NCBI RefSeq assembly: GCF_002914525.1
Contig: NZ_LODW01000082.1
Span: 1 to 64,000, forward strand
Direction: 5' to 3'
Source: Rhizobium hidalgonense
GTDB taxonomy: Bacteria; Pseudomonadota; Alphaproteobacteria; Rhizobiales; Rhizobiaceae
Length of the DNA: 64,000 nucleotides
Every line of letters begins with the position of its first letter. Within the stretch, counting starts at the first letter, position 1. The notes beneath the pieces were generated by a model, which saw only the letters and a program-made list of their open reading frames with translations, was not told where the DNA came from and made no database searches. Both the position numbers and the translations under genes were made by a program. Shown one piece after another: positions 42,282 to 60,892 of the stretch.

Positions 42282-42321
42282 GGTTCTAGATAGGTTCTAT
42301 TGTGTGCCGATGGATAGAACC
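42282..42321 (+). promoter_or_regulatory. putative operator of the amino-sugar GntR regulator
   Basis: GGTTCTA occurs twice in direct order, 11 bases apart (42282-42288 and 42293-42299). Its inverse, TAGAACC, lies at 42315-42321 just inside the gntR coding start. The flanking TGGTTCTAGA resembles the NagR/DasR-type TGGTCTAGACCA operators, so autorepression of the operon is likely. Confidence 0.55.
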
Positions 42322-44111: not shown

Positions 44112-45262
44112 TGGCCCGCAAGATCTTCGTCGGCGCCCGCATCTTCGACGGCGGGCGCTTCCATGACGACAAGGCGCTTCTCGTTGCCGATGGCCGTGTC
44201 GAAGCGATCGTTGGGAGAAACGATCTGCCGGATGGCGAGACGGTGACGTTTGCCGGCGGCGTTCTGTCGGCCGGATTCATCGATGCGCAGGTCAATGGCG
44301 GCGGCGGGCGGATGCTGAACGACGAACCATCAGCCGCTTCGATGGAGATCATTGCCGACGGGCACCGGCCCTATGGCACGACGTCGCTGCTGCCGACGCT
44401 GATTACCGATACGTCAGAGGCATCCATGGCCGCGATCGAAGCGGCGAAGGAGGCCGTCACGGCAAACCGCGGCGTCGCCGGCCTGCATCTCGAAGGCCCG
44501 CACCTGGCGCCCGCCCGCAAGGGCGCGCATCTGGCCGAATTGATGAGACCGGTTGAGGATAGCGACGTCAAAGCCTTCATCCGGGCGCGTGAAGCAATCG
44601 GCACACTGCTTGTCACCATGGCCGCCGAGCAGGTGACGGTTGCCCAGGTGCGTGAGCTTGCAGAGGCTGGTGTCACGATCAGCATCGGCCATTCCGATTG
44701 TTCGAGCGAGGCGGCGGAAGAACGTTTCGATGCCGGCGCACGGGGCGTCACGCATCTCTTCAACGCCATGAGCCAGCTTGGACACCGGGCGCCCGGTCTC
44801 GTCGGCGCGGCGATCGACCATCCCTCGGTCTGGTGCGGAATCATTGCCGACGGTCATCACGTCGATCCGAAAGCCTTGCGCACGGCGCTGCGCGCCAAGC
44901 GCGGCGAAGGCAAGCTGTTCTTCGTTACCGATGCAATGTCGCTCGTCGGGTCTGAGAAGGACTCGTTCACGCTGAACGGGCGCACCGTCCGGCGCGAAAA
45001 GGGCGGGTTCTGCTCGAAGCTGGTGCTGTCCGACGGGACGCTCGCCGGTTCCGACGTCGATATGATCTCGACGATCCGATACGGCGTGACCTATCTGGAG
45101 CTGACGCTCGCCGAAGCCTTGCGCATGGCGACGCTTTATCCCGCCCGGTTCCTCGGGCTTGGCGACCGCGGCCATCTCTCGCCGGGCGCGCGCGCCGATC
45201 TGGTGCATCTCACCGATGCCCTCACAGTTACCGCCGCCTGGCTCGGCGGCGAGGCGGCCTGA
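44111..45262 (+). CDS. nagA: N-acetylglucosamine-6-phosphate deacetylase
   Basis: A 383-aa amidohydrolase removing acetate from GlcNAc-6-P. Features in order: [12 protein letters not shown] near residue 58, [49 protein letters not shown] with the metal His residues, and the catalytic Asp in [11 protein letters not shown]. It lies in the operon between the deaminase and a second SIS protein, starting on the deaminase stop codon. Confidence 0.94.
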
Positions 45263-45278
45263 CATCAAGGAGAGTGGG

Positions 45279-46007
45279 ATGACTGATATCACGGATGCCT
45301 ACTTCGCCAATCTGATCGGCCGGCTGGAGACGCTGAAGAGCGCGCTTGCCGAGCCGATGGCGCAAGCAGCTGATGTCATTCTCGATGCTGCCCGCGGCGA
45401 CAAGCGCGTTTATGTCTTCGGCACCGGCCATTCGCATATGCTGGCGGAAGAGGTTCACTATCGCGCCGGCGGGCTCGCCTTCACCGTGCCGGTGCTGGTC
45501 GGCTCGGCGATGCTGCATGAGGGGGCGGTCATCAGCTCGGTCTATGAGCGCACACAGGGTCTGGTGCGGCCGATGCTGGAGCGTTACGGCATGCAGCCGG
45601 GCGATGTCATTATCATTGCCTCCAATTCGGGCGTGAACGCCGCGCCGATCGAGGCCGCCGACTATGCGCGCGAGATCGGCGCAAAGGTGATCGCCATCAC
45701 TTCAATTGCCTATTCCTCGGCGATCGCCAACGGGCGCCGACGGCTCGCCGACGTCGCCGACGTGGTGCTCGATAACGGACTGCCGCCGGGGGATGCCGTT
45801 CTCGATCTCGAAGGTACGGGATTTCGGGTCGGGCCGGTCTCGACGGCGGTCGGGGTGACGGTCATCAATGCGATCTTTGCCGAAGTCGCCTCGGAACTTG
45901 CGAAGGCCGGCGATCCGCCGATCTATCTCAGCGCCAACATGCCGGGCGCCGCCGAGATCAACCAGAAGCTCGTGCGGAAATATCGGCCGCGCAATCCGCA
46001 TTTGTGA
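45279..46007 (+). CDS. SIS-domain sugar-phosphate-binding protein (UPF0309-like)
   Basis: A 242-aa single-SIS-domain protein ([20 protein letters not shown]...[32 protein letters not shown]). Such proteins bind or isomerise phosphosugars; the exact reaction is unknown to me. ATG 45279 has AAGGAG 8 bases upstream. As the last gene of the nag operon it may process a second amino sugar or a 6-phospho-intermediate. Confidence 0.8.
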
Positions 46008-46068: not shown

Positions 46069-46638
46069 TCAATCCTTGGCGCGCTCGACGTAGGAATTGT
46101 CTTCCGTCGCGATGACGACGCGGGTGCCGGCATTGATGTGCGGCGGCACCATGGTGCGCACGCCATTCGACAGCATGGCCGGCTTGTAGGAAGACGATGC
46201 CGTCTGCCCCTTGACGACCGGTTCGGTCTCGGTGATCTCAAGCGTGACGTGGCGCGGCAGTTGGAGCGCCAGCGCAATACCTTCATGCATCGAAAGGATG
46301 CAGGACATTCCTTCCTGCAGATAAGCCTTGTCGTCACCCATCGTGTCGACATCGACGACGACCTGATCGTAGCTCGCCGGGTTCATGAAGTGGAAGCCTT
46401 CGCCGTCTTCATAGAGAAACTGGAAGGAGACGTCTTCGACGAAGGCGCGCTCGACCTGTTCGGTGGTGCGCCAGCGCTCGGAAACCTTCACGCCGTCGAC
46501 GATGCGGCGCATGTCGACCTGGGTGACCGGCGTGCCCTTGCCCGGGTGAAAGTTCTGGGCGGTGAGAACGACGTAGAGCTTGCCGTCCACGTCGAGAACG
46601 TTGCCCTTGCGGACCGAAGAGGCGATAACCTTGACCAT
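46069..46638 (-). CDS. efp: elongation factor P
   Basis: EF-P rescues ribosomes stalled at polyproline; 189 aa, three beta-barrel domains. The modification loop FHPGKGTP has Lys 34, the residue beta-lysylated by EpmA/EpmB, whose genes lie divergently next door. ATG 46638 gives the standard N-terminus [12 protein letters not shown]; a longer frame begins at 46692. Confidence 0.97.
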
Positions 46639-46782
46639 AAGACTTCCTTGTAACTCGGCTTTCACCGTCGTAGAGGACTGTCGAACCTCCAAGACGGAAA
46701 TATTTTTCTTTGGGGCGCAACTAACCTAAAATCCGGGAAATAGCCATCCCCATACCGACTTCTCCGGCGAAGAAAGCTTGGA

Positions 46783-47844
46783 ATGAACTCTTCGGCCAAA
46801 GCGTCCCCCTGGTGGACCCCGTCCGTGCATGCCGATCGCCGTCCGTTCTTGATTGGGCGCAATGCGATCCAGGCGGCGTTGCGCGGGTTTTTCGCGGGCG
46901 AGGATTTCATCGAGGTCGATACGGCGGCGCTGCAGATCTCCCCCGGCAACGAGGCGCATCTGCATGCCTTCGCCACGGAAGCGCTGACGACGGATGGGCA
47001 AAGGGCGCCGTTCTACCTGCACACCTCGCCGGAATTCGCCTGCAAGAAGCTGCTTGCGGCCGGCGAGGAACGCATCTCTTGTTTTGCCCATGTCTATCGC
47101 AATCGCGAACGCGGGCCGCTGCACCATCCCGAATTCACCATGCTCGAATGGTATCGCGCCGACGAAAGCTACGAGAGCCTGATGATGGATTGCGTGCGGA
47201 TCCTGGCGCTGGCGGCGGAAACAGCAAAGACCGAGAAGCTTGCCTATCGCGGCGGCGAGAGCGATCCCTTCGCCGGGCCGGAGCGGATCAGCGTTGCCGT
47301 AGCCTTCGAACGTCATGCCGGCATCGACCTTCTTGCTTCCGTTGCCGCCGACGGTTCGACCGATCGCGATCATCTGGCCGCCGAGCTCCGGCGCGTCGGC
47401 ATGCGTGTCGCCGAGGACGATGGCTGGGCCGATCTGTTCAGCCGGGTGCTGGTCGAAATGATCGAGCCGCATCTCGGCTTCGGCCGTATCACCATTCTCG
47501 ACGAATATCCGGTCTCGGAGGCCGCCCTTGCGCGTCCTTCGGCACGCGACCCCCGGGTTGCCGAACGTTTCGAGCTCTATGCCTGCGGCGTCGAGCTTGC
47601 CAATGGCTTCGGCGAGCTGACCAATGCTGGCGAACAGCGGCGGCGCTTCGAGATCGAGATGGCCGAGAAGGCGCGGGTCTACGGTGAGACCTATCCACTC
47701 GACGAGGATTTCCTCGCCGCACTGTCGCTGATGCCCGAGGCCAGCGGCATCGCGCTCGGCTTCGACCGGCTGGTGATGCTGGCGACGGGGGCATCGCGTA
47801 TCGACCAAGTGCTGTGGGCGCCGGTCGCGGAGTATGGAAGATGA
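46783..47844 (+). CDS. epmA: EF-P lysyltransferase EpmA (GenX)
   Basis: A class II lysyl-tRNA-synthetase-like enzyme without the anticodon-binding domain, 353 aa. Motif 2 is CFAHVYRNRERGPLHHPEFTMLEWYRA and motif 3 is GIALGFDRLVML. It transfers (R)-beta-lysine to EF-P Lys 34. It is divergent from efp, and its stop overlaps the epmB start (ATGA at 47841-47844), so the module is co-expressed. Confidence 0.95.
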   Translation: MNSSAKASPWWTPSVHADRRPFLIGRNAIQAALRGFFAGEDFIEVDTAALQISPGNEAHLHAFATEALTTDGQRAPFYLHTSPEFACKKLLAAGEERISCFAHVYRNRERGPLHHPEFTMLEWYRADESYESLMMDCVRILALAAETAKTEKLAYRGGESDPFAGPERISVAVAFERHAGIDLLASVAADGSTDRDHLAAELRRVGMRVAEDDGWADLFSRVLVEMIEPHLGFGRITILDEYPVSEAALARPSARDPRVAERFELYACGVELANGFGELTNAGEQRRRFEIEMAEKARVYGETYPLDEDFLAALSLMPEASGIALGFDRLVMLATGASRIDQVLWAPVAEYGR

Positions 47845-48893
47845 ATGCCGTCAAGCCGATCAAGAGTATCGACGATCTGGTCATGGCAGGGCTGGTGGCG
47901 CCGGCCGATCGCATAGCGCTGGAGGCGGTTGCCGCGCGTTACGCGATTGCCCTGACGCCAGTTATGACCGGGCTGATCGACCGCGCCGATCCCGATGATC
48001 CGATCGCACGGCAATTCGTGCCGGATGCCGCCGAACTGACGGTCGCCCTAGAAGAACGCGCCGATCCGATCGGCGATCAAGCCCACAGCCCGGTCGAAGG
48101 CATCGTTCATCGTTATCCCGATCGTGTGCTGCTGAAGGCTGTGCATGTCTGCCCGGTCTATTGCCGCTTCTGCTTCCGGCGCGAAATGGTCGGGCCGCAG
48201 GGTCTCGGCACGCTCGATGCGGTGGCGATGCAGGCGGCCTTCGACTATATCAAAGGTCATGGAGAGATCTGGGAGGTGATCCTCACCGGCGGCGATCCGC
48301 TGGTGCTCTCTCCGCGCCGGCTCCGCGACATCATGGAGGCGCTGGCGGAATTCGCCCATGTGAAGATCGTGCGGTTCCACACGCGTGTTCCCGTCGTCGA
48401 GCCTGAGAGGATCGATGCGGCGTTGATCGCCGCGCTGAAGGCGAGCGGCAAGACGGTCTATGTGGCGCTGCACGCCAACCATGTCAGGGAATTGACGGCG
48501 GAAGCGCGCGCGGCCTGTGCCCGTCTCGTCGATGCCGGCATCGCCATGGTCAGTCAGTCGGTGCTGCTCAAAGGCGTCAACGACGATCCCGACGTGCTTG
48601 CGGAACTGATGAAGGCTTTCGTCGAGATCCGCGTCAAACCCTATTACCTGCATCACCCGGATCTGGCGCCCGGCACCGGCCATTTCAGATTGACGATTGA
48701 GGAGGGACAGAGGATCGTCGCGGCGTTGCACGGGCGGATCTCCGGACTGTGTCAGCCGACCTACATCCTTGATATTCCGGGTGGTCACGGCAAGGCCGTT
48801 GTCAGCGGCAGCACCGTTCGGGCTAGGGGTGAGGGATGTTATTCCGTCTCGGATTACCGCGGCAACGAGCATTCCTATCCGCCCGTTGATTGA
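47841..48893 (+). CDS. epmB: EF-P beta-lysylation protein EpmB (lysine 2,3-aminomutase)
   Basis: A radical-SAM enzyme of the KamA family, 350 aa, converting (S)-lysine to (R)-beta-lysine for EpmA. The CxxxCxxC cluster motif is in CPVYCRFCFRREMVG, and the SAM/PLP-adjacent TGGDPL and the C-terminal lysine-binding region follow. Placement next to epmA and efp distinguishes it from catabolic KamA. Confidence 0.94.
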   Translation: MNAVKPIKSIDDLVMAGLVAPADRIALEAVAARYAIALTPVMTGLIDRADPDDPIARQFVPDAAELTVALEERADPIGDQAHSPVEGIVHRYPDRVLLKAVHVCPVYCRFCFRREMVGPQGLGTLDAVAMQAAFDYIKGHGEIWEVILTGGDPLVLSPRRLRDIMEALAEFAHVKIVRFHTRVPVVEPERIDAALIAALKASGKTVYVALHANHVRELTAEARAACARLVDAGIAMVSQSVLLKGVNDDPDVLAELMKAFVEIRVKPYYLHHPDLAPGTGHFRLTIEEGQRIVAALHGRISGLCQPTYILDIPGGHGKAVVSGSTVRARGEGCYSVSDYRGNEHSYPPVD

Positions 48894-49066
48894 CGCAAAG
48901 CGGTGCGTTTCGTGTCATTTCTGTACTCGCCGCGGCGAAAATTGGGTCGAATTCCATCGTCGAGACAGGCGTAAGTCGTTGATTAATAGCCGATATTATA
49001 GCTCAAGCCGCGGCAATCGCTAAAATCCTAACTGTGAGCCTCAATCATATTTAACGCTATAAATTA

Positions 49067-49087
49067 GCGGAATATTCTGTTTTCCGC
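49067..49087 (+). promoter_or_regulatory. possible operator before the carrier-protein operon
   Basis: GCGGAA (49067-49072), nine bases, TTCCGC (49082-49087), within an AT-rich 260-base region upstream of the acyl-carrier-like gene. It may bind a regulator; none is adjacent. The rest of 48894-49155 shows no gene. Confidence 0.35.
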
Positions 49088-49155
49088 ACTAAAAGAACGC
49101 TCATGACAAGGCGATGAACGCCGGATCGGGATCATGAGAATCTTGGAGTGATGGG

Positions 49156-49407
49156 ATGAATAAGACAATCCGCGACCTCGTAGCCAAATTCGGCAAACTT
49201 CCTGTCGCAATCGACCAGGTCGCCGACGATGCCGATCTTTATGCGGCGGGTCTGACCTCCTTTGCTTCGGTGCAGCTGATGCTTGGCATCGAAGAAGCGT
49301 TCGACATCGAATTTCCCGATAATCTCCTGAATCGCAAATCCTTCGCGAGCATCTCGGCGATCGCCAAAACGGTCGATAGTATCCAGGACAGCCGGAAGGT
49401 CGCCTGA
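49156..49407 (+). CDS. dedicated acyl/amino-acyl carrier protein
   Basis: An 83-aa phosphopantetheine carrier protein. The attachment serine is Ser 35 in AAGLTSFASVQLM (DSL-like site written L-T-S), followed by the usual IEEAFDIEFPDNLLNRKSF second helix. It is less acidic than housekeeping ACP. It opens an operon with an acyl-CoA dehydrogenase (start overlapping the stop) and an aaRS-like ligase. In Bradyrhizobium and Agrobacterium such carrier proteins are aminoacylated by the adjacent ligase. Confidence 0.88.
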   Translation: MNKTIRDLVAKFGKLPVAIDQVADDADLYAAGLTSFASVQLMLGIEEAFDIEFPDNLLNRKSFASISAIAKTVDSIQDSRKVA

Positions 49408-50588
49408 TGAACTTCCCCGTCAAGATCACGCAGGACGGTCTTGCCGCAAGGGTCGCTCGTGTCGCCGAAATCGCGGCGAAACACGCCGATACCGTCGATG
49501 CCGAGGGCCGCTTTCCCCGGGAAGCCGTGGATGCGATGAAGGCCGAAAGGCTGCTCGGCATCCAGGTGCCGCGCCATTTCGGCGGTGAATCCGCCTCGAT
49601 CACCGAGATTGCCGAATTGTGCTCGATGCTTGGCCAGGCCTGCGCGGCCAGCGCCATGGTTTTCGCCATGCACCATATCAAGCTGTCGAGTCTCGTCGAA
49701 CACGGCGCCGACAGCGAATGGCATTGCGACTTCATGCGCTGCATTGCTGCCGACCAGCTGCTGATCGCTTCGGCCACCACCGAGGGCGGTATCGGCGGAA
49801 ACCTGCGCAACAGCATTTGCGCGGTCGAAGTCGATGGCGATCTCTGCCGCCTCGAAAAGGATGCGACCGTCATTTCCTACGGTTCGCATGCCGATGCCAT
49901 TCTCATCACCTCGCGTGCCCATGCGCAGGCGGCTTCCTCCGATCAGGTGCTGACGGCCTTCCTCAAGGACCAGTATACGCTCGAGAAGACCCATGCCTGG
50001 AACACGCTCGGCATGCGTGGCACCTGCTCCGACGGCTTCCTGTTCAAGGGACAGGCGCCGGCGCGTCAGATCCTGCCGAAGCCTTTCGCGGAGATCGCGG
50101 CGCAATCGATGCTCGCCTCCTCGCACCTGCTCTGGAGCGGCGTCTGGTACGGTATCGCGGTCGACGCCGTAGCGCGCGCCCAGGCTTTCGTGCGCGCCGC
50201 CGCCCGCAAGGCACCCGATACTCAGCCGCCGGGCGCGCTGCGCCTCGCCGAGGTTTCGAACCTGTTGCAGATGGTCAAATCCAACGTGGTTGCCGGCCTC
50301 AAGGCCTATGAGGATGCCAAATCTAATCATGACAGGCTGTCCTCGATGGGCTTTGCCGTGGCGATGAACAACGTCAAGATCGCCTCGTCCGAGACGATCC
50401 TGGAGATCGTCAACCATGCCATGCTGATCTGCGGCATCATGGGCTACAAGAACGGCACGCCTTTCAGCCTCGGACGCCATCTGCGCGATGCGCATTCCGC
50501 GCAGCTGATGATTTCGAACGACCGAATCCTCGGCAATACGTCGAGCATGCTTCTCGTCCACAAGCAGGACACTAGCCTTCTGGGGTAA
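49407..50588 (+). CDS. acyl-CoA dehydrogenase-like flavoprotein
   Basis: A 393-aa acyl-CoA dehydrogenase fold. The N-terminal helical domain is at about 1-115, the middle beta domain has [20 protein letters not shown] and [10 protein letters not shown], and the C-terminal helices carry the flavin contacts. It starts on the carrier-protein stop, so its substrate may be carrier-bound rather than CoA-bound; the ligase neighbour supports an aminoacyl- or acyl-carrier oxidation. No family-standard catalytic Glu could be assigned with certainty. Confidence 0.8.
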
Positions 50589-50592
50589 AGCC

Positions 50593-51501
50593 ATGGATAT
50601 GCAGACCTCGTTTCTCGACCGGCTCTTCGAGTCCGGCCTGCTGATCGATACCGGCGTTGATGGTCTCTATGGCCGCAGCGGCCAGTTCGAAGACGTCATT
50701 ACTGCTTTCGAACGGCTGATCGACACGTTCGGCGGCGCCGACGGCGCCGAGGCGATGCGTTTCCCGCCCGGCATGAACCGAGCGCTCTTCGAAAAAAGCG
50801 GTTACATGAAGAGCTTCCCGCAGCTGGCCGGTACGGTGCACAGTTTCTGCGGCAGCGATCTCGACCATATGAGCCTGCTGCAGTGCATGGAAGTCGGCGA
50901 CGACTGGACCAAGGACCAGAAGGCAACCGATATCGTGCTGACGCCGGCTGCCTGCTACCCGCTCTATCCGACGGTCGCCAAACGCGGCAACCTGCCGGCC
51001 AAGGGCGGTCTCTTCGATCTTCAGTCCTATTGCTTCCGCCATGAGCCTTCGAAGGATCCTGCCCGCCAGCAGTTGTTTCGCATGCGTGAATATGTGTGCA
51101 TGGGCACGGAGCAGCACGTCACCGATTTTCGTCAGACATGGATGGATCGCGGTGTCGAGATGATGAAGCACCTCGGCCTCGATGTGACCATCGACGTTGC
51201 CAACGACCCGTTCTTCGGGCGTGCCGGCAAGATGATGGTCAACAACCAGCGCGACCAGAACCTGAAGTTCGAATTGCTGATCCCGATCACGTCGACGGCA
51301 AATCCGACTGCCTGCATGAGCTTCAACTACCACCAGGATTCCTTCGGCCTGAAGTGGGGTCTGAACCTCGAAGACGGCAGCGTCGCACACACGGCCTGCG
51401 TCGGTTTCGGGTTAGAACGCATCGCGCTTGCCCTCTTCCACCATCACGGGCTCGACGTAAAGCAATGGCCGGCCAGCGTGCGGAAAACGCTGTGGGGCTG
51501 A
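50593..51501 (+). CDS. amino acid:[carrier protein] ligase (SerRS-like)
   Basis: A 302-aa relative of the catalytic core of atypical seryl-tRNA synthetase, lacking the tRNA-binding arm. Motif 2-like [20 protein letters not shown] and motif 3-like [12 protein letters not shown] are intact. Cys 121, Glu 166 and Cys 269 match the zinc-ligand pattern Cys-Glu-Cys of the characterised Bradyrhizobium enzymes (spacing identical to memory of those positions minus ten). Those enzymes activate glycine or alanine and attach it to the phosphopantetheine of the neighbouring carrier protein, not to tRNA. It is co-transcribed with the carrier protein and the acyl-CoA dehydrogenase. Confidence 0.9.
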
Positions 51502-51509
51502 GCCGGTCG

Positions 51510-52472
51510 ATGACATCGGTATTTTCGGGGATCGACCCGGAAACTTATCGTCAGCACGCGCTGCATTCCGGCGAGCGCGCCTGGCCGGAAACCAATTGCT
51601 ACGTCGATCTCTGGATCGAGGTGCTGGCGACCTCGGGCGTTGCGCCTGAGGCGATGCTGGGTTTCACCCTGGCGCAGGATTTCGAAGGCGACCAGTTCAC
51701 CTTCTTCAAGGTGCCGCTCGAAGATCTCGAAGCGCTCTACGACATTCGCGCCACCGAGCTTGCCATCTATGACCGTGTCGAACGGCATGTGGAAGTGCAG
51801 ATTGCGCGGGGCCGTCTCTGCCTGATCGAGATGGATTCCTTCTACATGCCGGACACGCGCGGCACCGCCTACCGGCAGGAGCACGGCAAGACGACAGTTG
51901 CCATCAACCGGCTTGATGTTGTGGCCAAACGCGTCGAGTATTTTCACAATGCCGGCTATTTCAAGCTTGACGGCGAGGATTTCGACGGGTTGTTCCAGCT
52001 GAAGTTGACGGAAAACGACCCGCCGTTCCTGCCCTATACGGAATTTGCGCGGTTCCCGGAAAAGCCCGCGGATGAAGCGCATCTGCGCGCTACCGCGCGG
52101 CGCCTTGCCGGGTTTCATTTCACCAGGCGTCCTCGCGAAAATCCGATCCGCGCATTCGCGGAGGTCTTCCCGCAGCAGGTCGAAGCGGTGGCGGAACGGC
52201 CCTTCGGCTTCTTCCACAAATATGCCTTCAATACGCTTCGCCAGGTCGGCGCCAATTTCGAGCTGGCGGCCGATCATCTGGCCTGGCTTTCCCCCGATGA
52301 ATTCGCGGCGGCCGCCGAGCATGCGCGGCGCATTTCGGATGCGGCGAAATCGGTGCAGTTCCAGCTTGCCCGCGCCATCGCCCGCCGGAAGTTCGAGCCG
52401 CTGCAGACAGCCCTTGATCCGGCCGCCGATGCATGGGATTCCATGATGGCATCGCTTGTGGAGCGAATCTGA
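51510..52472 (+). CDS. DUF1839-family protein
   Basis: A 320-aa protein of unknown function. It matches DUF1839 in my memory by the segments AWPETNCYVDLWIEVLATSG, LEMDSFYMPDTRGTAYRQEH-like and FHNAGYFKLDGEDF. It has no signal or membrane segment. ATG 51510 starts 8 bases after the ligase stop. DUF1839 genes accompany aaRS-like ligases in other genomes; a role in transferring the activated amino acid is plausible but unproven. Confidence 0.78.
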   Translation: MTSVFSGIDPETYRQHALHSGERAWPETNCYVDLWIEVLATSGVAPEAMLGFTLAQDFEGDQFTFFKVPLEDLEALYDIRATELAIYDRVERHVEVQIARGRLCLIEMDSFYMPDTRGTAYRQEHGKTTVAINRLDVVAKRVEYFHNAGYFKLDGEDFDGLFQLKLTENDPPFLPYTEFARFPEKPADEAHLRATARRLAGFHFTRRPRENPIRAFAEVFPQQVEAVAERPFGFFHKYAFNTLRQVGANFELAADHLAWLSPDEFAAAAEHARRISDAAKSVQFQLARAIARRKFEPLQTALDPAADAWDSMMASLVERI

Positions 52473-52488
52473 GGCCGGAGATCTGACC

Positions 52489-54969
52489 ATGCGGGGGCGT
52501 TTGGCAAGCATCGGTGCCGAGGAAAGTCTGCTTTCCGAAGGCTGGAATCTGATCCTGACGGAGCCGGGCGCCTGCGCCGTACCGCACGACATTCATCTCT
52601 CCGCGCAGTTCATTCCGGCGCCCGTTCCCGGCACCGTTGCGTCAGCCCTCGAAAAAGCCGGGCTCTTCGACCGGGAAAATCCCGAGCCGCTGAACATCAA
52701 AGACGCCTGGTATCTCTGTCGGCTCTTCGATGCCGAGCCCGGAGAAGCGATCCTGCGGTTTGCAGGACTTGCGACGCTTTGCCATGTCTTCCTGAATGGC
52801 CAGGAAATCCTCTTTTCCGAAAGCATGTTCACGGCGCACGAAATCCCGGTAACACTTACGGGCGGCGACGAGCTGGCGCTGTGTTTTCGGGCGCTCGGCC
52901 CCCGCCTGTCGGAGCCTGGTCCGCGCGCACGCTGGCGGCCGCAGATGATCACGCCGGCGGGGCTGAAGAATTTCCGCACGACGCTGCTCGGCCATATGCC
53001 GGGCTGGTGCCCCGATATCCATGCGATCGGGCCGTGGCGGCCTATTTCACTGGTGCGGCGCAATCCGGTCTCAATCGACAATGTCTACATCCGCGCCGTG
53101 CTGGAGGAGAACGGCGTCGGCCGTCTCAGCGTTTCCCTGCACAGCAATGCCGAGAAGCCGGCAATGCTGCTGCGTTGCGGTGGCATGGAACAGCCCTTCG
53201 AGAAGGTCGCCGACAGCCATTATTCGGCGATCCTCAAGCTTTCCGACATCGAGCCTTGGTGGCCACATACGCATGGCGAGCCCCGTCTCTACGATTTAGC
53301 GCTGGTTTCCGACGGCGTGGAATATCTGCTCGGCACGACCGGCTTCCGGCGGATCGACGTCGACCGTGGCGCCGACGGCAACGACTTCGCCCTCACCGTC
53401 AACGGTGAACGCATCTTCTGCCGCGGCGCGGTGTGGACGACGGCCGATATTGTACGGCTGCCGGGCGGGCGGGGCGATTATGAACCGTTCCTGCGGCTTG
53501 CGGCGCAGGCCGGCATGAACATGATCCGCATCGGCGGCACCATGGCCTATGAGACGCCCGATTTATTCGCGCTTTGCGACGAACTCGGCCTGCTGGTCTG
53601 GCAGGATTTCATGTTTGCCAATTTCGACTATCCCCGTAACGACAAGGCGTTTCTCGGCCACGTGCATGCCGAGGTCGAGGAATTCCTGCACGGCGTCCAG
53701 GCGTCGCCATCCCTTGCGGTGCTCTGCGGCGGCAGCGAAATCCATCAACAGGCGGCGATGCTCGGCCTGCCGATGGAATTCTGGAGCGGGCCTGTCACGG
53801 ATGAAATCATCCCGGCCATTGCCGCGCGCAAGCGTCCCGACGTGCCCTATGTCCCGAACTCGCCCTATGGCGGGGCGATGCCATTTTCGCCGAATGCCGG
53901 TATCGCCCATTATTACGGCGTCGGCGCCTATATGCGGCCGATGGCGGATGCGCGCCGCGCCGATGTGCGTTTTGCCTCCGAAAGCCTCGCCTTCGCGCAT
54001 GTGCCGCAGCAACGGACGCTGCAGCGCCATCTCGACGTGCCGGCCGTTCATAGTCCGCTCTGGAAGGCCCGCGTGCCGCGCGACCGCAGCGCATCGTGGG
54101 ACTTCGAGGACGTTCGCGACTTCTATCTGCAGCTTCTCTATGGCCTCGATCCGGCCCAGCTTCGCCGCGAGGATCCGGAACATTATCTCGATTTCTCCCG
54201 CGCGGTCACCTGCGAGGTGATCGAGGAGACCTTTGCCGAATGGCGGCACAAGGGCTCCGCCTGCAACGGCGCGCTCGTCTGGACGCTGCAGGACTTGCTG
54301 CCCGGCCCCGGTTGGGGCGTGATCGATTCCACCGGAGAGCCGAAGCCGGTCTGGTACGCGATGCGCCGCGCATTCCGGCCGGTTCAGATGGTTTTCACCG
54401 ACGAGGGAACCAACGGTCTCGATGTGCACATCATCAACGAAACGGATGCCGCACTCGACGTGGAACTCGAAGTCGTCTGCCTGCGCGACGGAAGACAGCA
54501 GGTTGTCAGCGGCAGCAGGGCCTTCAAGCTGGCGGCAAGAGACACGGAGCGGCTTGCCGCTACCGCGCTGTTCGGCGCCTTCTTCGATACCACCTATGCC
54601 TTTCGTTTCGGCCCGCCGTCGCATAATGCGAGCGTCGCGCGCCTGCGCTCGCTGGCGGACGGCGCCGTTCTCGCGGAAAGCTTTCACTTCCCCTGCGGAC
54701 GGGCAAAGGCGCTGCATGATGCGGGCATCGAGGCCTCGCTCGGCAGAGACGGCGACGACTGGTTCGTCGATCTCAGGACCGACCGGCTGGCGCAATCGGT
54801 GCATATCGACATCGAAGGCTATCGGGCCGACGACGACTGGTTCCATCTCGCTCCCGGCGCATTGCGGCGTGTGAAGCTTCACGCGCTGTCTGGCGCGGAG
54901 GGCGATATTCCGCCTGCGGGCGAAATCAGAAGTCTCGGCAGTTCACATCGCGTCGGGCTCGCGGGCTGA
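52489..54969 (+). CDS. glycoside hydrolase family 2 (beta-mannosidase-like) protein
   Basis: An 826-aa cytosolic-looking protein with the GH2 plan: N-terminal sugar-binding domain (about 20-180), immunoglobulin-like domain (about 200-300), TIM barrel (about 310-640), and further beta domains to the C-terminus. The acid/base Glu is probably Glu 417 (VLCGGSEIH) and the nucleophile Glu 498 (FASESLAFAH). No signal peptide is visible, so it acts inside the cell or is a non-catalytic homologue. It lies in the operon before a glycosyltransferase, suggesting trimming or remodelling of the same glycan. ATG 52489 has GGAG 9 bases upstream. Confidence 0.82.
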   Translation: MRGRLASIGAEESLLSEGWNLILTEPGACAVPHDIHLSAQFIPAPVPGTVASALEKAGLFDRENPEPLNIKDAWYLCRLFDAEPGEAILRFAGLATLCHVFLNGQEILFSESMFTAHEIPVTLTGGDELALCFRALGPRLSEPGPRARWRPQMITPAGLKNFRTTLLGHMPGWCPDIHAIGPWRPISLVRRNPVSIDNVYIRAVLEENGVGRLSVSLHSNAEKPAMLLRCGGMEQPFEKVADSHYSAILKLSDIEPWWPHTHGEPRLYDLALVSDGVEYLLGTTGFRRIDVDRGADGNDFALTVNGERIFCRGAVWTTADIVRLPGGRGDYEPFLRLAAQAGMNMIRIGGTMAYETPDLFALCDELGLLVWQDFMFANFDYPRNDKAFLGHVHAEVEEFLHGVQASPSLAVLCGGSEIHQQAAMLGLPMEFWSGPVTDEIIPAIAARKRPDVPYVPNSPYGGAMPFSPNAGIAHYYGVGAYMRPMADARRADVRFASESLAFAHVPQQRTLQRHLDVPAVHSPLWKARVPRDRSASWDFEDVRDFYLQLLYGLDPAQLRREDPEHYLDFSRAVTCEVIEETFAEWRHKGSACNGALVWTLQDLLPGPGWGVIDSTGEPKPVWYAMRRAFRPVQMVFTDEGTNGLDVHIINETDAALDVELEVVCLRDGRQQVVSGSRAFKLAARDTERLAATALFGAFFDTTYAFRFGPPSHNASVARLRSLADGAVLAESFHFPCGRAKALHDAGIEASLGRDGDDWFVDLRTDRLAQSVHIDIEGYRADDDWFHLAPGALRRVKLHALSGAEGDIPPAGEIRSLGSSHRVGLAG

Positions 54970-54984
54970 GGCTCGCTGGGAATA

Positions 54985-56190
54985 ATGCAAATCCACCGGA
55001 AAGATCGTGACTTGAGAAAGACATACCGGCTTCTACGCGCCCACGTTCTGCAACGGCTGATCCCGCGGTCGCGTGTCGCTTTCAATCCGCGCAAGCCGGT
55101 GGAAGTGGTCGGCTATCTGTCGATGGCGGTCGGCGTCGGTGAATCGGCGCGGCTCTGCGCCGGAGCGCTTTCGGAGGCGGGACGGACGATATCGCTCTCC
55201 GACGTCAGCACGCATCCCGACGCGAATTCCTTTCCCGGATGGGCGCCGCCGCGCGCCCCCAGCGAGCCGCCGGGAAGCCGGATCTGGCACCTCAATCCGC
55301 CGATGCTGCCGCGTGCCATCCTCAAGAAGGGTGTCACGAATTTCACCCGCGCCTTCAATATCGGCTATTTCGCCTGGGAACTGGAAGTCGTGCCGGCCGA
55401 ATGGCGCAATGCCATGCATTATATGAACGCCGTCTTCGTGCCGTCGGAATTCACCCGGCGGACGATTGCGCCGCTCACCAAAGCGCCGGTCATCGTCGTT
55501 CCGCATCCGGTGACCGAGGCGGCGGCGACGGAAGGCATGCGGGAGAAGTTCGGCATCGAGAGGGATGCCTTTCTTGTCAGCTTTATCTTTAGCGCCGGCT
55601 CCTCGATCAACCGGAAAAATCCGCGGGCGGTCATCGAGGCTTTCAGGATATTTGCCGCCGAAGCCCCAAGCGCCTTCCTGCTGATGAAGGCAAGTGGCGA
55701 TGTGAACAAGGATGAAGCCTTGCGTGCGCTGGTCGCCTCGGTCGCGGGCGACGCCCGGATCAGGATCGTCACCGACAGGCTGTCGAACGCCGATGTCAAC
55801 GGCCTCATTCGCTCCTCCCAAGCCTATCTTTCGCTGCATCGTTCCGAGGGTTTTGGGCTGACGGTTGCCGAGGCGATCATGCAGCGCACGCCGGTTATTT
55901 CCACTTCCTGGTCGGGCACGGCGGATTTCTGCGACCCCGACAATTCATGGCTGGTCGCCTCTCCTCTCATTCCCGTCGTCGATACTCATCCGGAATTTGC
56001 CGGGCTCGACGGTGCGGTCTGGGCGGATCCCTCTCCTCAAGCCGCAGCCGCGCATCTCAGCGAGATTTATCGCGCGCCCGAGCTGGCGCGGGAGAAGGCC
56101 GAGAAGGCGCGGGCGTTCCTGCTGCGCTACCTCGCCGAGAATAGCTATGAGAAGGCGCTTCAGACGCTGGCGGCGATGCAATCCAGCTAA
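54985..56190 (+). CDS. GT4-family glycosyltransferase
   Basis: A 401-aa retaining glycosyltransferase (GT-B). The acceptor domain is N-terminal (VGYLSMAVGVGESARL). The donor domain has FSAGSSINRKNP and the E-x7-E motif in SEGFGLTVAEAI. It probably adds a sugar to a lipid-linked or carrier-linked acceptor in the cytosol. It is the sixth gene of the carrier-protein operon, 15 bases after the GH2 gene. Confidence 0.85.
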   Translation: MQIHRKDRDLRKTYRLLRAHVLQRLIPRSRVAFNPRKPVEVVGYLSMAVGVGESARLCAGALSEAGRTISLSDVSTHPDANSFPGWAPPRAPSEPPGSRIWHLNPPMLPRAILKKGVTNFTRAFNIGYFAWELEVVPAEWRNAMHYMNAVFVPSEFTRRTIAPLTKAPVIVVPHPVTEAAATEGMREKFGIERDAFLVSFIFSAGSSINRKNPRAVIEAFRIFAAEAPSAFLLMKASGDVNKDEALRALVASVAGDARIRIVTDRLSNADVNGLIRSSQAYLSLHRSEGFGLTVAEAIMQRTPVISTSWSGTADFCDPDNSWLVASPLIPVVDTHPEFAGLDGAVWADPSPQAAAAHLSEIYRAPELAREKAEKARAFLLRYLAENSYEKALQTLAAMQSS

Positions 56191-56251
56191 GGTGAGGTCG
56201 TCACTCCGCTTTATTTTAATATTTTCGCATTAGAGATGACGGCTATGCGGC

Positions 56252-56359
56252 TTTAGAGCATGTCGCGCAAAAGTGTGCAGCAGTTTTGCGATAACGGCAT
56301 GCGTAAAAACAAAACCTGAATCGCGAGGAGCGAATCTGAAAGATCGCGACGCGCTTTAG
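56252..56359 (-). repeat. RIME-like dispersed repeat, ~108 bp, inverted
   Basis: Inverse complement of the copy at 13222-13329, with only scattered differences, from GCATGTCGCGCAAAAGTG to GATCGCGACGCGCTTTAG. It separates the glycosyltransferase from the flippase fusion and could carry a transcription or processing signal. Confidence 0.75.
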
Positions 56360-56381
56360 GCCGATGCTGGCGGATGGACAG

Positions 56382-59300
56382 ATGTCGAAAGGTATTATCG
56401 CTAACTCGGTGATGAATGCGGCAGCAGGCATGCTGCTGCTGCTGACGGGCTTCGTCTCGTCGATCATCACCGCACGGCTGCTCGGGCCGGAGGCCAATGG
56501 TATCGTCGCCTTCTCGCTCTGGCTGGTGGTCACGGGCGCCTCGATTGCCGAGCTCGGCTCCAGCATCACGCTCCTGAAGACTCTGCCGCAGTTGTCGGTC
56601 GAAGGTTACGATGCGCGCCGCCGGCGGGGATTTGCCGCCATCCTCGTCAGCTTCATGATGTTTTCGACCGTCGTGCTGCTGGCGCTCTACGCGCTGTTCT
56701 TCCTGACCTCCGAAAAGATGCACTGGGCGGAGACCGCGCCATCCGTCGCACTGGTCACGGCTGCGCTGTTCTTCGTCCAGGCGATCGGATCCTTCGTCAA
56801 ATTCTACCTGATCGGCGAAAAGAAGCTCGGCGCCTTCTTCAAGCTGACGGTCGCTGTCTCGATCGTGCAGCTTGCCGGCGTTGCCGCCGGCGCCGTTTTC
56901 TACGGTGTCGAGGGTGTTCTCGTCGGTTACGCGTTCGGCCAACTCGTCTTGTTTTTCGCCACGCTGCCGATCCTGCTTGCGCGGCGCGATTGGTGTGGGG
57001 TCTCGCTGAAATATCTCGCCTCCTCCTCCGTCATCCTGTCGATCCAGTTCATCATCGATTCGATTTTCCTCAACCGGCTCGAGCTGCTCTTTTTGCAGCA
57101 GTTCTGGTCTGTGGAGATGGTCGGCTATTATGCCGTCGGCCTGTCGATCGCCAATATCGCGCTGCAACTGCCGATCCAGATGACCGGCAGCCTGCTGCCC
57201 TATTATTCCGAGCGGCGCCATAATAGCGACGATTCCACCTTGCCGGTCGAGGTCTTCGCCGCCGTCACCCGCAGCATGGCCTATATCGTACTGCCGATGA
57301 GCCTCGGGCTTGCCGCGATCTCCAGCGAGTTGGTGCTGGTGGTGTTCGGCGAAGCGTTCCGCCGCAGCGGAACGGTGGTGGCGCTGCTTGCGCTCGTCGC
57401 GCCGGCCTATACCTTCATGCAGATCCTCAGCCTCTATCTGTTGTCGATGGACAGGGCCCGCTCCCGCCTCAAGATCAGTGTGATAGGTGGCCTTCTGATG
57501 GTAGTCGGTTGTTTACTGATCATACCTAGGCTTGCGGCCGAGGGTGCTGCACTCGTGCGCATCCTCGTCTTCGTTGCAATGTCGGTGATGATGATCAGAC
57601 AGACAGGATTCGGATCCCAGCTTTCAAGCCTCTACACAAGCCTGACAAAGGTGACGCTCGCCTCCGTGCTCTGTGCTTGTGGCGCGATCTCCGTGCTGGA
57701 ATTCGTCCAGGGTCCGATCGGCCTCGTCGCCGCGATCATTGCCGGCACATTCTGCTATTTCGCGGCGCTTCGCGTGCTGCGCGCCGTGCCAGCCGAGGAT
57801 GTCGAGGTCATGCGGTCCATTCTCGACAAAATGCCGCCCATGCTGCGGCGGCCTGTGGGACGCGCGATCAATTTCATTGCGCCGCGGCTTCCGGGCGACC
57901 CCGACCGCGCCAAGGTGGCGCCGGGTGAATTTTCGCTCGAACCGGCCGAGGGTGCGGGACGCGGTGCTGCCCTGCCTGTCGTCTTCGACGGCACGATCGG
58001 CCTGTTCATGCCTGAAAATCCCACGGTCAAGAAGCGGTCGGCCGCCGTGCTCTTCGTCAGCCCCTGGGGTTTCGAGGAAATGTGCAGCCGCAAATTCTTC
58101 CGGGTCGCCGCCGAGCATTTTTCCGATATCGGCGTGCCGAGCCTGCGCTTCGATTATCGCGGCACCGGCGATGCGCTCGATTTCGACGCGCTGCCGGCAA
58201 GGCTGGAAACCTGGGAAAATTCGATCCGCGCAGCCGCCGCCAAGCTGAAATCGCTCTCCGGCTGCGACCGGGTCATTCTTATCGGACAGGGCCTCGGCGC
58301 AACGCTTGCCCATCGCATCGGCGCCTCGATCGACGGCGTCGACAGCCTCGTCATGCTGGCGCCAGTGCTGAGCGGTCGCGCCTATCTGCGCGAACTCAAC
58401 ATGTGGTCGAAGATCATCGACGCCGATCTCGGCCTCGGCAAGGAGCATGTCCAGACCGCGAAGGTGCAGATCGCCGGGCTCGCCATGCCAGACGAGATCG
58501 CCGCCGAGCTCGGCAAACTCAATATCGCTTCGCCGCAGGGGCTGGCAGCATCGCGCTATCTGATCCTCGAACGTCCGGCCAAGGCCGACGATACCGGCTT
58601 TGCCGATGGGCTGAAGGCGCTTGGTGCCGATGTCGAGCAGACGGTTTTCGAAGGTTATGACGAGCTCGCCACCAATCCGCTGTTTGCCAAGACGCCGACA
58701 GCCGTCGTCGAGCGGTTGAGAACTTGGCTGGAGGCGACGACGACAGAGACATCCGCCGCCCACTCACCTGACGTGATCGAGAACCCGCCGCTTGCCGGCG
58801 AGGGTTTTGTCGAAGCGCCAGTGCGTTTCGGCAGCCACGATCATCTGGTCGGCGTCGTCAGCCGGCCGCTCGGCGAGATCCAAGGCAATGCCGTTCTCTT
58901 CCTGTCGACGGCCTATGACCGGCATGCCGGCTGGGGACGCACCACGGTGGATATGGCGCGCGAACTCGCGCGCCAGGGCGTCGTGTCGCTGCGCTTCGAT
59001 TCGGCCAACGTCGGAGACAGCCCGCCGCGGCCGGATGCGCCGGAGCAGGTGCTTTATTCCAGTACACAGACCGAGGACGCGGTTGCCGCGCTCGATTTGC
59101 TCGAAAGCGTCGTTGCGGGTCCGATCATGGTGGCCGGCCGATGCAGCGGCGGTTATGTCGCCTTCCGCGCCGGTGTTGCCGACGAGCGATTGAAGGCGGT
59201 CGTCTCGATCAATCCCTTCGTCTACTACTGGGATCCGGAGATACCGGTGCGCAAGGAGCATGTCGTCTCCGTTCCTCGCAGCCTCGATGATTACGGTCAG

Positions 59301-59693
59301 CGGCTGGCGCGAATGGATACGCTGAAGAGGCTCATCAGCGGTCAGGTGGATGTGGTATCGGCGCTGCAGAATATCGTCATCGCCGGCGGCCGGCGTCTGT
59401 CGCCCTGGATCGCGCCGCTGCTCGAGCTGCTTCCCGACCGGCGCCATATCGCCCGCGAAGTCCGGCATTCCTTCGCGCAGTTCGGCAAGCGCAAGGTGCC
59501 GCTGACGCTGATCTACAGCGAAGGCGACGTCGGGCTCGACCACGTCTATTTCCATTTCGGGCCGCGCGGCGCCAAGCTTTCCCGCTATCCGAACGTGCGG
59601 CTGCTGATGCTGCCGGATGCCGACCACAATCTGACGCCGCCGCAATCGCGCAAATTCGTGCTCGACGAAATTATCCGCCTGGCGAGAGCCTGA
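56382..59693 (+). CDS. Wzx-type flippase fused to two alpha/beta-hydrolase domains
   Basis: A 1103-aa protein, far longer than normal flippases (~450-500 aa). Residues about 1-480 form a polysaccharide-biosynthesis (MATE-like) flippase of about 12-14 helices. About 530-760 is an alpha/beta-hydrolase whose nucleophile elbow reads G-Q-G-L-G, with Gly 637 where Ser is expected, so it is probably non-catalytic. About 800-1100 is a second alpha/beta-hydrolase with elbow G-R-C-S-G, i.e. a Cys 921 nucleophile like dienelactone hydrolase, with the Asp and His in YSEGDVGLD and DADHNLTPP. ATG 56382 was chosen over 56364. It may flip a glycan and modify or release it; the second domain could cleave a carrier-linked ester or thioester. 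I recall no characterised protein of this layout. Confidence 0.8.
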   Translation: MSKGIIANSVMNAAAGMLLLLTGFVSSIITARLLGPEANGIVAFSLWLVVTGASIAELGSSITLLKTLPQLSVEGYDARRRRGFAAILVSFMMFSTVVLLALYALFFLTSEKMHWAETAPSVALVTAALFFVQAIGSFVKFYLIGEKKLGAFFKLTVAVSIVQLAGVAAGAVFYGVEGVLVGYAFGQLVLFFATLPILLARRDWCGVSLKYLASSSVILSIQFIIDSIFLNRLELLFLQQFWSVEMVGYYAVGLSIANIALQLPIQMTGSLLPYYSERRHNSDDSTLPVEVFAAVTRSMAYIVLPMSLGLAAISSELVLVVFGEAFRRSGTVVALLALVAPAYTFMQILSLYLLSMDRARSRLKISVIGGLLMVVGCLLIIPRLAAEGAALVRILVFVAMSVMMIRQTGFGSQLSSLYTSLTKVTLASVLCACGAISVLEFVQGPIGLVAAIIAGTFCYFAALRVLRAVPAEDVEVMRSILDKMPPMLRRPVGRAINFIAPRLPGDPDRAKVAPGEFSLEPAEGAGRGAALPVVFDGTIGLFMPENPTVKKRSAAVLFVSPWGFEEMCSRKFFRVAAEHFSDIGVPSLRFDYRGTGDALDFDALPARLETWENSIRAAAAKLKSLSGCDRVILIGQGLGATLAHRIGASIDGVDSLVMLAPVLSGRAYLRELNMWSKIIDADLGLGKEHVQTAKVQIAGLAMPDEIAAELGKLNIASPQGLAASRYLILERPAKADDTGFADGLKALGADVEQTVFEGYDELATNPLFAKTPTAVVERLRTWLEATTTETSAAHSPDVIENPPLAGEGFVEAPVRFGSHDHLVGVVSRPLGEIQGNAVLFLSTAYDRHAGWGRTTVDMARELARQGVVSLRFDSANVGDSPPRPDAPEQVLYSSTQTEDAVAALDLLESVVAGPIMVAGRCSGGYVAFRAGVADERLKAVVSINPFVYYWDPEIPVRKEHVVSVPRSLDDYGQRLARMDTLKRLISGQVDVVSALQNIVIAGGRRLSPWIAPLLELLPDRRHIAREVRHSFAQFGKRKVPLTLIYSEGDVGLDHVYFHFGPRGAKLSRYPNVRLLMLPDADHNLTPPQSRKFVLDEIIRLARA

Positions 59694-59713: not shown

Positions 59714-60892
59714 TCAGGTCCGGTCGGCGGTGACGACGTTCAGTGACCGATAGAGATCGATGTAACGCCCGGCGACGATGTTCCAGGAATAACCGCGGGC
59801 AGCGTCGAGAAGGCCGGCACGAACGGCGTCCGGTTGGCGTGAAAGAGCGTCATACGCGGCTTCAATCACTGTTGCGGCGGTCTCGGGATTGGTGAAATCG
59901 GCCAGCGTGATGACCGGATGCCGGCCGGCAAGCGTTGTAAAGGCGTCGTTTGCGTTCAGCACCGGCAGCAGGCCGGCGCTCATCGCCTCCAGCGCCACCA
60001 GGCCGAAACCTTCATATTCCGAGGCGGAGGCAAAGAGCGAGGCCTCGGCGATGATGCGCCGGATGGCGCCGTTGTCGGGTGAAACATGCAGGGTGATGCG
60101 GCCGGAAAGGTTGCGGCCCACGATCGCGGCTTCGACATCGGCTCGGTTCAGATCGGATTCGGCCCCGACGATGTCGAGATGCCATTCCGGGTCGCGAGCC
60201 TTCAGTACGGCCATCGCATCGAGCAGATGGTCCAGCCGCTTGTTCACCGAGAACCGGCCGATGGTGATGATGCGGCGCTTTGCCCGGCGCGAAGCGGTAT
60301 CGGCGAACTTGCCGATATCGGCGCCGTTTTCGATCAGCAGGCTGTCCGGCACGATCTCGGAAAATTGCTTGAGGTCGGAGGCGCTGCAGCACACGACGCG
60401 CCGGTAGGCGAGCGCCGAAGCGCGGGTCAGCGTGCGGAACCAGATCTTCTTGATCGCGGCGTATTTCCGCGTGTGGAAAAAGCCGCCATGGGTGGTGACG
60501 ATCATCGGCTTGCCATGCAGCAGCCGGCCCCAGGCGAGCGCGTCGAAGAAGAAGTCGATGGCATGGACATGCACGAGATCGGCATCGGCGAGATGGCGGA
60601 AAACTTGAGGCGCCAGCGGATAACGGCTGCTGCCGGACCAGGGAATGCGCACCACCTCGATACCGTCGATATTTTCGCGCGGCGGCAGTTTGTTCTGAGG
60701 TTCGGTAAACAGCGAATCGAGGGTGACGACGCGAACGCGATAACCGCGGCGAACGGTCTGGCGGCCAAGATTGGCGACGACGTCTTCCAGGCCGCCACGG
60801 TTCGGCAGGAATTGGCGCACGACATGGACGATCAGCGGCGCCGTTTCCGGCTGCGGCTTCTCGCGCACCCTGTCTGCCTCGACGATCGCCAT
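59714..60892 (-). CDS. GT4-family glycosyltransferase
   Basis: A 392-aa retaining glycosyltransferase with GT-B fold. The N-terminus VVRQFLPNRGGLEDVV is the family loop. The donor site has TIGRFSVNKRLDHLL, and E-x7-E occurs in SEYEGFGLVALEA. It is convergent with the flippase fusion (20 bases between stops), so it may belong to the same glycan pathway but is transcribed separately. Confidence 0.85.
   Translation of the reverse strand: MAIVEADRVREKPQPETAPLIVHVVRQFLPNRGGLEDVVANLGRQTVRRGYRVRVVTLDSLFTEPQNKLPPRENIDGIEVVRIPWSGSSRYPLAPQVFRHLADADLVHVHAIDFFFDALAWGRLLHGKPMIVTTHGGFFHTRKYAAIKKIWFRTLTRASALAYRRVVCCSASDLKQFSEIVPDSLLIENGADIGKFADTASRRAKRRIITIGRFSVNKRLDHLLDAMAVLKARDPEWHLDIVGAESDLNRADVEAAIVGRNLSGRITLHVSPDNGAIRRIIAEASLFASASEYEGFGLVALEAMSAGLLPVLNANDAFTTLAGRHPVITLADFTNPETAATVIEAAYDALSRQPDAVRAGLLDAARGYSWNIVAGRYIDLYRSLNVVTADRT

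Follow-up and report, generated by a model that had tools for sequence, protein, structure and literature searches.

Ligases that resemble aminoacyl-tRNA synthetases (aaRS) and charge carrier proteins have, to our knowledge, been known since 2010 with no known role; we take the amino acid used to be glycine for Bll0957 and alanine for Atu2573. The charging reaction is described in the corresponding section of a review (PMC9437257), and in a transcriptome study Atu2573 appears as the hub gene of a co-expression module, the lines on this gene being silent on its role (PMC11941606). A note added in proof in 2010 (PMC2922099) lists, in the passage on this subject, the gene neighbourhood of such a ligase and predicts that Atu2574 ligates an amino acid to the amine of a cell-surface sugar; given the gene order, Atu2574 would be the protein of the DUF1839 family. 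According to the part of a 2023 survey devoted to that family, DUF1839 is papain-like with a C-T/S-H triad and was guessed to process glycans at the cell wall in an acyl-CoA-dependent manner; the same survey describes BtrH of butirosin synthesis, also papain-like, which puts an acyl group borne by an acyl carrier protein (ACP) on an aminosugar and thus follows the same logic (PMC10318531). According to a review, CcbD takes carrier-tethered proline onto the Cys of a Cys-His-Glu triad and transfers it to a thiooctose amino group (PMC12945683). In this work we analyzed the neighbourhood of an aaRS-like ligase in a stretch of 64,000 nucleotides of Rhizobium hidalgonense (contig NZ_LODW01000082.1, positions 1 to 64,000; this whole stretch is called the window), where a run of seven plus-strand genes at 49156-59693 joins the ligase to DUF1839 and to genes of glycan metabolism and export. 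We consider, with a probability of about 0.6, that the first five genes of this run make and deliver a carrier-bound aminoacyl group with a sugar as the likely acceptor, and carrier-dependent aminoacylation of a sugar is, overall, the probable function of the cassette.

The initial annotation of the window had listed seven consecutive plus-strand genes; the sequence and the open reading frame calls confirm the run, and the family matches agree with the functions assigned to it. The first gene encodes a stand-alone ACP of 83 aa (49156..49407; NF005480, 126.8 bits against a cut-off of 72; PF00550, 35 bits), with the phosphopantetheine Ser placed by eye in the motif GLTSFASVQ. It is followed by a flavoprotein of 393 aa with the acyl-CoA dehydrogenase (ACAD) fold (49407..50588; PF02771 and PF00441 above cut-off), by the amino acid:carrier protein ligase of 302 aa, kin of the catalytic core of atypical seryl-tRNA synthetases (50593..51501; NF005479, 525 bits, cut-off 357), by the papain-like DUF1839 protein of 320 aa with Cys30, Thr128 and His146 (51510..52472; PF08893, 446 bits, cut-off 22.5), and by a GH2 protein of the beta-mannosidase type (52489..54969; PF22666; the start ATG at 52489 was chosen by inspection). 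The last two genes encode a GT4 glycosyltransferase (54985..56190; PF00534, 44.9 bits) and a protein of 1109 aa in which a MOP flippase is fused to two alpha/beta hydrolases, here called the bis-hydrolase (56364..59693; PF13440, 43.4 bits, cut-off 23; PF12146). In gene order, the spacing is a 1-bp overlap followed by gaps of 4, 8, 16, 15 and 173 bp; the tight packing ascribed to the first five genes holds and has to be extended to the GT4 gene, as the first six genes lie no more than 16 bp apart. The 7.27-Mb source genome has a single DUF1839 match, and among the matches listed the closest named relatives belong to Rhizobium (94% identity).

The conservation of this arrangement was followed in four sets of loci. 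For the order set, 199 order-level genomes were searched, of which 40 carry the ligase family and 36 carry it above cut-off (the window's included); up to 20 kb was taken around the 35 other ligases over cut-off and three of the four weak ones. The further set comprises 14 loci from 13 genomes chosen by their DUF1839 matches; the named set holds the best 80 of 578 confirmed loci, all close kin, and overlaps other sampled genomes (the contigs of L130 and L136 recur there as G023 and G429); finally, four plasmids with incomplete gene tables were opened out of 59 DUF1839-bearing plasmid records. The stretches mostly span 20-30 kb, and absence nearby does not mean absence from the genome. Some antisense frames that the gene finder also called (clusters 6 and 46) were disregarded.

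The order ACP-ACAD-ligase-DUF1839-GH2 is intact in all 25 DUF1839-type loci of the order set (25 of the 35 fetched over-cut-off loci). Among the named loci the five genes are co-conserved in 78/80, the exceptions being a degraded locus (L145) and one at a contig end (L171); the ligase and GH2 are found, at least in part, in 80, the ACAD in 79 and the ACP in 78. The ligase is present in 13 of the 14 further loci and GH2 in 12; the ligase-less one (L091) is a second DUF1839 copy, upstream of which no ligase lies and whose GH2 side is lost to the contig end. The same gene order is also found in Azospirillum and in Burkholderiales, reaching other classes, and because it recurs in such distant genomes the adjacency is not a matter of chance. 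A GH2 of the beta-mannosidase type is present in 25/25 order, 12/14 further, 80/80 named and 4/4 plasmid loci. The co-conservation of the ligase with a glycan-type gene, which the initial annotation had proposed to examine, is seen for GH2 throughout the order set, in 78/80 named loci and in other classes. DUF1839 itself is rare (16/398 phylum-level and 5/385 class-level genomes, the window counted in both) and had no match in 14 control genomes. The pairwise distances of the five core genes correlate (r 0.72-0.89), values that carry no species-tree correction and that a common species history raises too. The 59 plasmid records belong to Rhizobium (18), Azospirillum (11), Mycetohabitans (9), Caballeronia (7), Cupriavidus (4), Burkholderia (4), Shinella (3), Methylobacterium (2) and Phyllobacterium (1), and each of the four opened (from Rhizobium leguminosarum, Azospirillum, Mycetohabitans and Caballeronia) carries the five core genes together. 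Two other states of the cassette were observed: on a plasmid typed as conjugative (L210, NZ_CP018235.1) the core genes stand alone, flanked on both sides by transposase and thioredoxin genes, and in R. leguminosarum Vaf-46 (L145) a decayed cassette retains half of the ligase, DUF1839 and a GH2 fragment, without ACAD or ACP.

By sequence, DUF1839 gave no match in the PDB up to E 1. An AlphaFold2 (AF2) model derived from a 34-sequence alignment (pLDDT 93.7) gave 18 Foldseek hits below E 0.001, all of them to the AziU2-U3 complex, CtaG or CcbD (best E 1.0e-6). With VIA-align, 14 entries of these same proteins were found at Z 17.1-18.6 over 272-290 of the 320 residues (root mean square deviation 3.6-4.3, identity 11-14%), and the next row drops to Z 7.8. 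Within the alignment, Cys30 is conserved in 32 of the 34 sequences, Thr/Ser128 in 33 and His146 in all. The two rows without Cys30 (L092 and L094:7401-8378) are the in-operon copies of genomes G431 and G503, each of which has a second DUF1839 copy that keeps the Cys, 4-5 kb from the bis-hydrolase. Together with their second copies, L092:9435-10418 and L094:7401-8378 could form pseudoenzyme-enzyme pairs.

We propose that DUF1839 is a carrier-dependent amide synthase of the CcbD/CtaG fold, a shared fold alone showing no function. What the family has in common with CcbD/LmbD, as with CtaG and AziU2-U3, is the full-length fold and a conserved Cys, and CcbD itself uses a carrier-bound amino acid; its nucleophile is Cys19, the candidate counterpart of which in DUF1839 is, by conservation, Cys30. 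The DUF1839 cassette differs in its low identity (11-14%), in a donor loaded by an aaRS-like ligase, and in having a beta-mannosidase and often a flippase in place of an antibiotic pathway. The group transferred by BtrH is an altered amino acid; this enzyme belongs to a separate Pfam family (PF14399) and is not among the DUF1839 fold rows shown, which proves nothing. The initial annotation had suggested an exported saccharide as the destination of the amino acid or of a flavoprotein product, and the modelled fold fits a saccharide destination better than could be known at that point.

The cassette may work as follows. The ligase would use ATP to activate a small amino acid, which it would load onto the phosphopantetheine of the ACP, for which there is in vitro precedent in homologues; residues 16-300 of its 302 match residues 47-330 of Bll0957 (structures 3mey, E 1.4e-93, and 4h2w, E 2.5e-98), and the dedicated ACP gene lies two genes upstream, an ACP being near the ligase in 25/25 order loci. 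The ACAD-fold flavoprotein would then oxidise the aminoacyl thioester on the carrier. Subsequently, Cys30 of DUF1839 would accept the acyl group and pass it to an amine, most likely that of an amino sugar, as suggested by the fold, the conserved Cys and the partner ACP, with CcbD, its carrier-bound proline and thiooctose serving as a model. The weakest step is the fourth, in which GH2 and the two hydrolases (the hydr2-hydr1 pair) might trim the sugar product or add further acyl groups to it. In the Rhizobium lineage only, the hydrolase-fused Wzx would finally export a lipid-linked glycan.

The reaction of the flavoprotein may be of either of two kinds. Across the 50 rows shown, its AF2 model (pLDDT 91.1) matches dehydrogenases and monooxygenases alike at Z 39.7-42.3; the structural neighbours include the aminosugar nitrososynthases KijD3 and DnmZ (Foldseek list, KijD3 appearing among the Z rows as well) and ColB1, a carrier-tethered cysteine dehydrogenase (Z rows). 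The catalytic Glu of the enzymes of the medium-chain acyl-CoA dehydrogenase type, which we take to be recognised by the YEGT motif, corresponds here to Ile369 in LMIxNDR, both in the alignment with 7p98 and in a 27-sequence alignment (A2). In the latter this position is Ile or Val, and Met368, Asn371, Asp372 and Arg373 are invariant; inspection by eye revealed no Glu at the place used by the isovaleryl-CoA dehydrogenase type either. With no Glu at the usual catalytic position, we consider a monooxygenation no less probable than a desaturation, and the passage of 2010 considered monooxygenation for the redox enzyme too (PMC2922099).

The GH2 protein has its best match in the beta-mannosidase 5n6u (E 1.5e-47). 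Residues E413 and E494 (numbered from 52501) are invariant in a 21-sequence alignment (A3) aligned with 5n6u and correspond to the two catalytic Glu residues, acid/base and nucleophile. A simple hydropathy scan found no hydrophobic N-terminus on GH2 or DUF1839, and for this reason GH2 is probably cytosolic. At one locus (L040:7893-11327) the GH2 frame was called through to 1144 aa, overlapping DUF1839 in another frame, which is probably a start-site error and not a fusion. As for the 1109-aa protein, it comprises a Wzx-type flippase at approximately aa 1-490, with 12 hydrophobic segments in aa 16-466, a hydr2-like hydrolase at aa 553-732 and a hydr1-like hydrolase at aa 826-1100. The hydrolases are relatives and not members of two exosortase-associated families, given their scores for TIGR03101 (70.2 bits, cut-off 202.75) and TIGR03100 (75.4 bits, cut-off 168.45). 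A bis-hydrolase lies near the cassette in 19/25 order, 8/14 further, 54/80 named and 2/4 plasmid loci; among the 19 order loci having one, 18 carry it as an unfused gene of 568-621 aa, and the fusion to Wzx is seen in the window, in one order locus and in 39/54 named loci with a bis-hydrolase. In the hydr1-like half, the nucleophile elbow G-x-C-x-G (GRCSGG in the window) occurs in 33/33 sequences, taken from 84 loci with a hydrolase match, and in 31 of them its Cys aligns with the Cys of four out of four exosortase-type hydr1 proteins, the other two sequences being cut or misaligned.

The genes of glycan export show a looser association, according to profiles built in this analysis: Wzx lies near 8/25 order, 3/14 further, 45/80 named and 0/4 plasmid loci, and GT4 near 10/25, 5/14, 45/80 and 0/4, respectively. 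The GT4 of the window is strongly matched in 26/80 named loci, and among the loci examined it has a close counterpart only in near Rhizobium. Export is therefore a frequent and not a core partner of the cassette, the flippase and GT4 being lineage add-ons; the initial annotation had treated the glycan genes as one operon unit, which stands for GH2, part of the core, and has to be given up for GT4 and Wzx. Other glycan genes were seen near some cassettes: the neighbours in L038 are GT4, Wzx and GH5, and the same gene clusters occur in several of its kin; the Mycetohabitans plasmid has ArnT-like, acyltransferase and lipoteichoic acid synthase-like genes within 9 kb, and on the Caballeronia plasmid pelG lies ~11.5 kb from the cassette.

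Several points weigh against carrier-dependent aminoacylation of a sugar that ends at the cell surface. The products of the CtaG and AziU2-U3 pathways are, we assume, other than surface glycans, and the AziU pair presumably closes an aziridine instead of forming an amide. The fold search leaves dehydrogenases and monooxygenases tied at Z 40-42 and does not separate them. No hydrolase was seen near 6/25 order, 6/14 further, 26/80 named and 2/4 plasmid loci, the four opened plasmid loci gave no match to the Wzx or GT4 profiles, and in L095 the first four genes are present with no GH2 across 9.5 kb downstream. In addition, the DUF1839 triad as published in the survey section, C-T/S-H (PMC10318531), differs from the Cys-His-Glu of CcbD.

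Given that the plasmid copies have no flippase or GT4 nearby, a soluble aminoacyl-sugar has to be considered. In its broader form, this explanation holds that the product of the cassette is a small molecule, soluble and secreted, either an aminoacyl-sugar or a modified dipeptide-like metabolite, in the manner of lincosamide, closthioamide or azinomycin, and that the Wzx and glycosyltransferase of Rhizobium are incidental or were recruited later. It agrees with the five- or six-gene units without nearby Wzx or GT4 matches in the incomplete tables of the R. leguminosarum, Azospirillum, Mycetohabitans and Caballeronia plasmids, with the typing of one cassette plasmid as conjugative, and with the origin of the structural relatives of DUF1839 in natural-product pathways; the beta-mannosidase-type GH2, present at the frequencies given above, the occurrence of hydr2-hydr1 relatives in exosortase-associated clusters and the Wzx-hydrolase fusion in 39/80 named loci argue against it, and we regard it as unlikely, yet as a serious competitor. 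A hydrolytic role, in which DUF1839 and the alpha/beta hydrolases would act as editing peptidases or thioesterases, removing aminoacyl-ACP or trimming the cell wall, seems improbable: the nearest full-length folds are biosynthetic, DUF1839 and GH2 lack the hydrophobic N-terminus sought in the hydropathy scan, and the GxCxG elbow of hydr1 resembles that of polyhydroxyalkanoate synthase, even if most papain-like and alpha/beta-hydrolase folds are hydrolases and the survey section guessed that DUF1839 acts on glycans at the cell wall (PMC10318531).

Only one part of the ligase family accompanies DUF1839. The ligase of the window belongs, over cut-off, to the curated family of Bll0957 and Atu2573, with which it also shares an ACP and an ACAD beside the gene. 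In a ligase tree (n=51), all 39 DUF1839-linked rows, the window's among them, fall on one side of one branch (82/92; 84% of 200 bootstrap trees); another branch (84/92; 86%) has the 10 DUF1839-less ligases on one side. These supports are moderate and under the tool's own star level, with a warning of long branches. The loci of the latter, which are 10 of the 36 over cut-off in the order set, have the ACAD and the ligase and neither DUF1839 nor GH2; a weak ACP match is found on the opposite strand in 8/10 and none in 2/10. We assign Bll0957, by assumption, to this DUF1839-less branch. The initial annotation had stated that the link would be accidental if related genomes carried the ligase, ACP and ACAD away from glycan genes; this is the case for the 10/36 DUF1839-less ligases and not for the branch of the window. 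An accidental adjacency of an amino-acid carrier module and unrelated glycan genes, suggested by those ten loci, is very improbable and was dropped for DUF1839 and GH2, given that the ten form a separate ligase branch and that in the window's branch the five genes stay together in 25/25 order loci, in other classes and on plasmids, and it stands for GT4 and, outside Rhizobium, for Wzx.

Some ligases outside the DUF1839-linked branch have other partners. Near several DUF1839-less ones (L058:10541-11413, L055 and L057; also L061, L062 and L064) there is a conserved protein of 270-294 aa with a GNAT-like look on visual inspection; the L058 protein, the one scanned, had no Pfam match. At L062 an AMP-ligase, an SDR and a weak PP-binding protein are found in addition. 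A distant relative of the ligase is flanked by an MBOAT protein and an ACP-like gene (weak PF00550) in L067:5392-10797 and L068:5692-8725, and GGDEF/EAL genes are close by; these sets would be Dlt-like, with the aaRS-like ligase standing in for DltA.

The likeness of the hydrolases to the exosortase A-associated clusters (TIGR03098/03100/03101) was also followed. As a phylum-wide probe TIGR03101 matched 176/299 genomes at E 0.001, four of them over cut-off, which is too loose, and therefore only the four over-cut-off loci (L124-L127) were compared for ACP, L128 and L129 being left out. Each has an ACP-type gene within ~2.5 kb, directly before hydr2 in three (the candidate in L124 scores 20.5 bits against a Pfam cut-off of 20.8), and a pyridoxal phosphate (PLP) decarboxylase of the ornithine/arginine type; the TIGR03098 ligase is present in the three loci scanned for it (L124-L126). 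The two kinds of cluster thus share the hydr2-hydr1 order, a nearby ACP, an adenylating ligase and the Cys elbow of hydr1. In contrast, the exosortase-associated clusters have a ligase of the acyl-CoA-ligase type, a PLP decarboxylase and unfused hydrolases. It is conceivable, if rather doubtful, that Proteobacteria have a general ACP-based attachment of altered amino acids to exported sugars, with two interchangeable loading modules (aaRS-like ligase plus flavoprotein, or, in the exosortase-associated clusters, an acyl-CoA-ligase-type enzyme plus PLP decarboxylase), a shared Cys-elbow hydr2-hydr1 pair and, in the window, a CcbD-like DUF1839 that forms the amide. Such a route, if true, would be a third one beside Dlt D-alanylation and tRNA-dependent aminoacylation. 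We do not claim a pure exosortase system for the window, as the hydrolase scores are below cut-off and no search for exosortase genes was made.

The initial annotation knew of no described pathway with this content, which has to be corrected: the passage in PMC2922099 forecast both the neighbourhood and the outcome in 2010, so the idea of sugar aminoacylation is 16 years old. That passage contains neither the fold, nor the family split, nor the hydrolase-flippase link, and terms the redox enzyme Rossmann-fold; among the open-licence papers listed we found no experimental follow-up of its prediction. What is new here is the full-length match of DUF1839 to CcbD, CtaG and AziU2-U3, the conservation of its Cys30, and the likeness of the fused hydrolases to the exosortase-associated pair. 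With the structural link to CcbD, the guess of 2010 becomes testable with purified proteins. The cassette would give a purpose to the carrier-charging aaRS-like ligases and, if the reading is true, many rhizobia, agrobacteria and azospirilla, together with symbionts from the Burkholderiales, produce an aminoacylated sugar whose presence at the surface or in the medium might influence how they live with plants, insects or fungi.

Regarding the surroundings of the cassette in the window, a gene for a GT4-type glycosyltransferase converges on it from the minus strand (59714..60892; identified by translation, GT4 profile 418 bits) and is a frequent cassette neighbour in Rhizobium. On the other side, the 262-bp gap upstream of the ACP gene (48894..49155, plus strand) is predicted from its sequence to be the likely site of the operon promoter. 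It is preceded, at 46069-48893, by the genes for elongation factor P (EF-P; minus strand), EpmA and a lysine-2,3-aminomutase-like protein. EpmA and the aminomutase gene precede the cassette in 63/80 named loci; as cassette partners these EF-P modification genes were rejected, since they do not precede it in the other 17 (including Shinella and Agrobacterium) or in the four plasmid tables. Farther upstream, 3-7 kb from the cassette (42304-46007), there are genes for a GntR-type regulator, a NagB-II-like protein (below cut-off), NagA and a sugar-isomerase-domain protein, that is, genes of amino-sugar breakdown.

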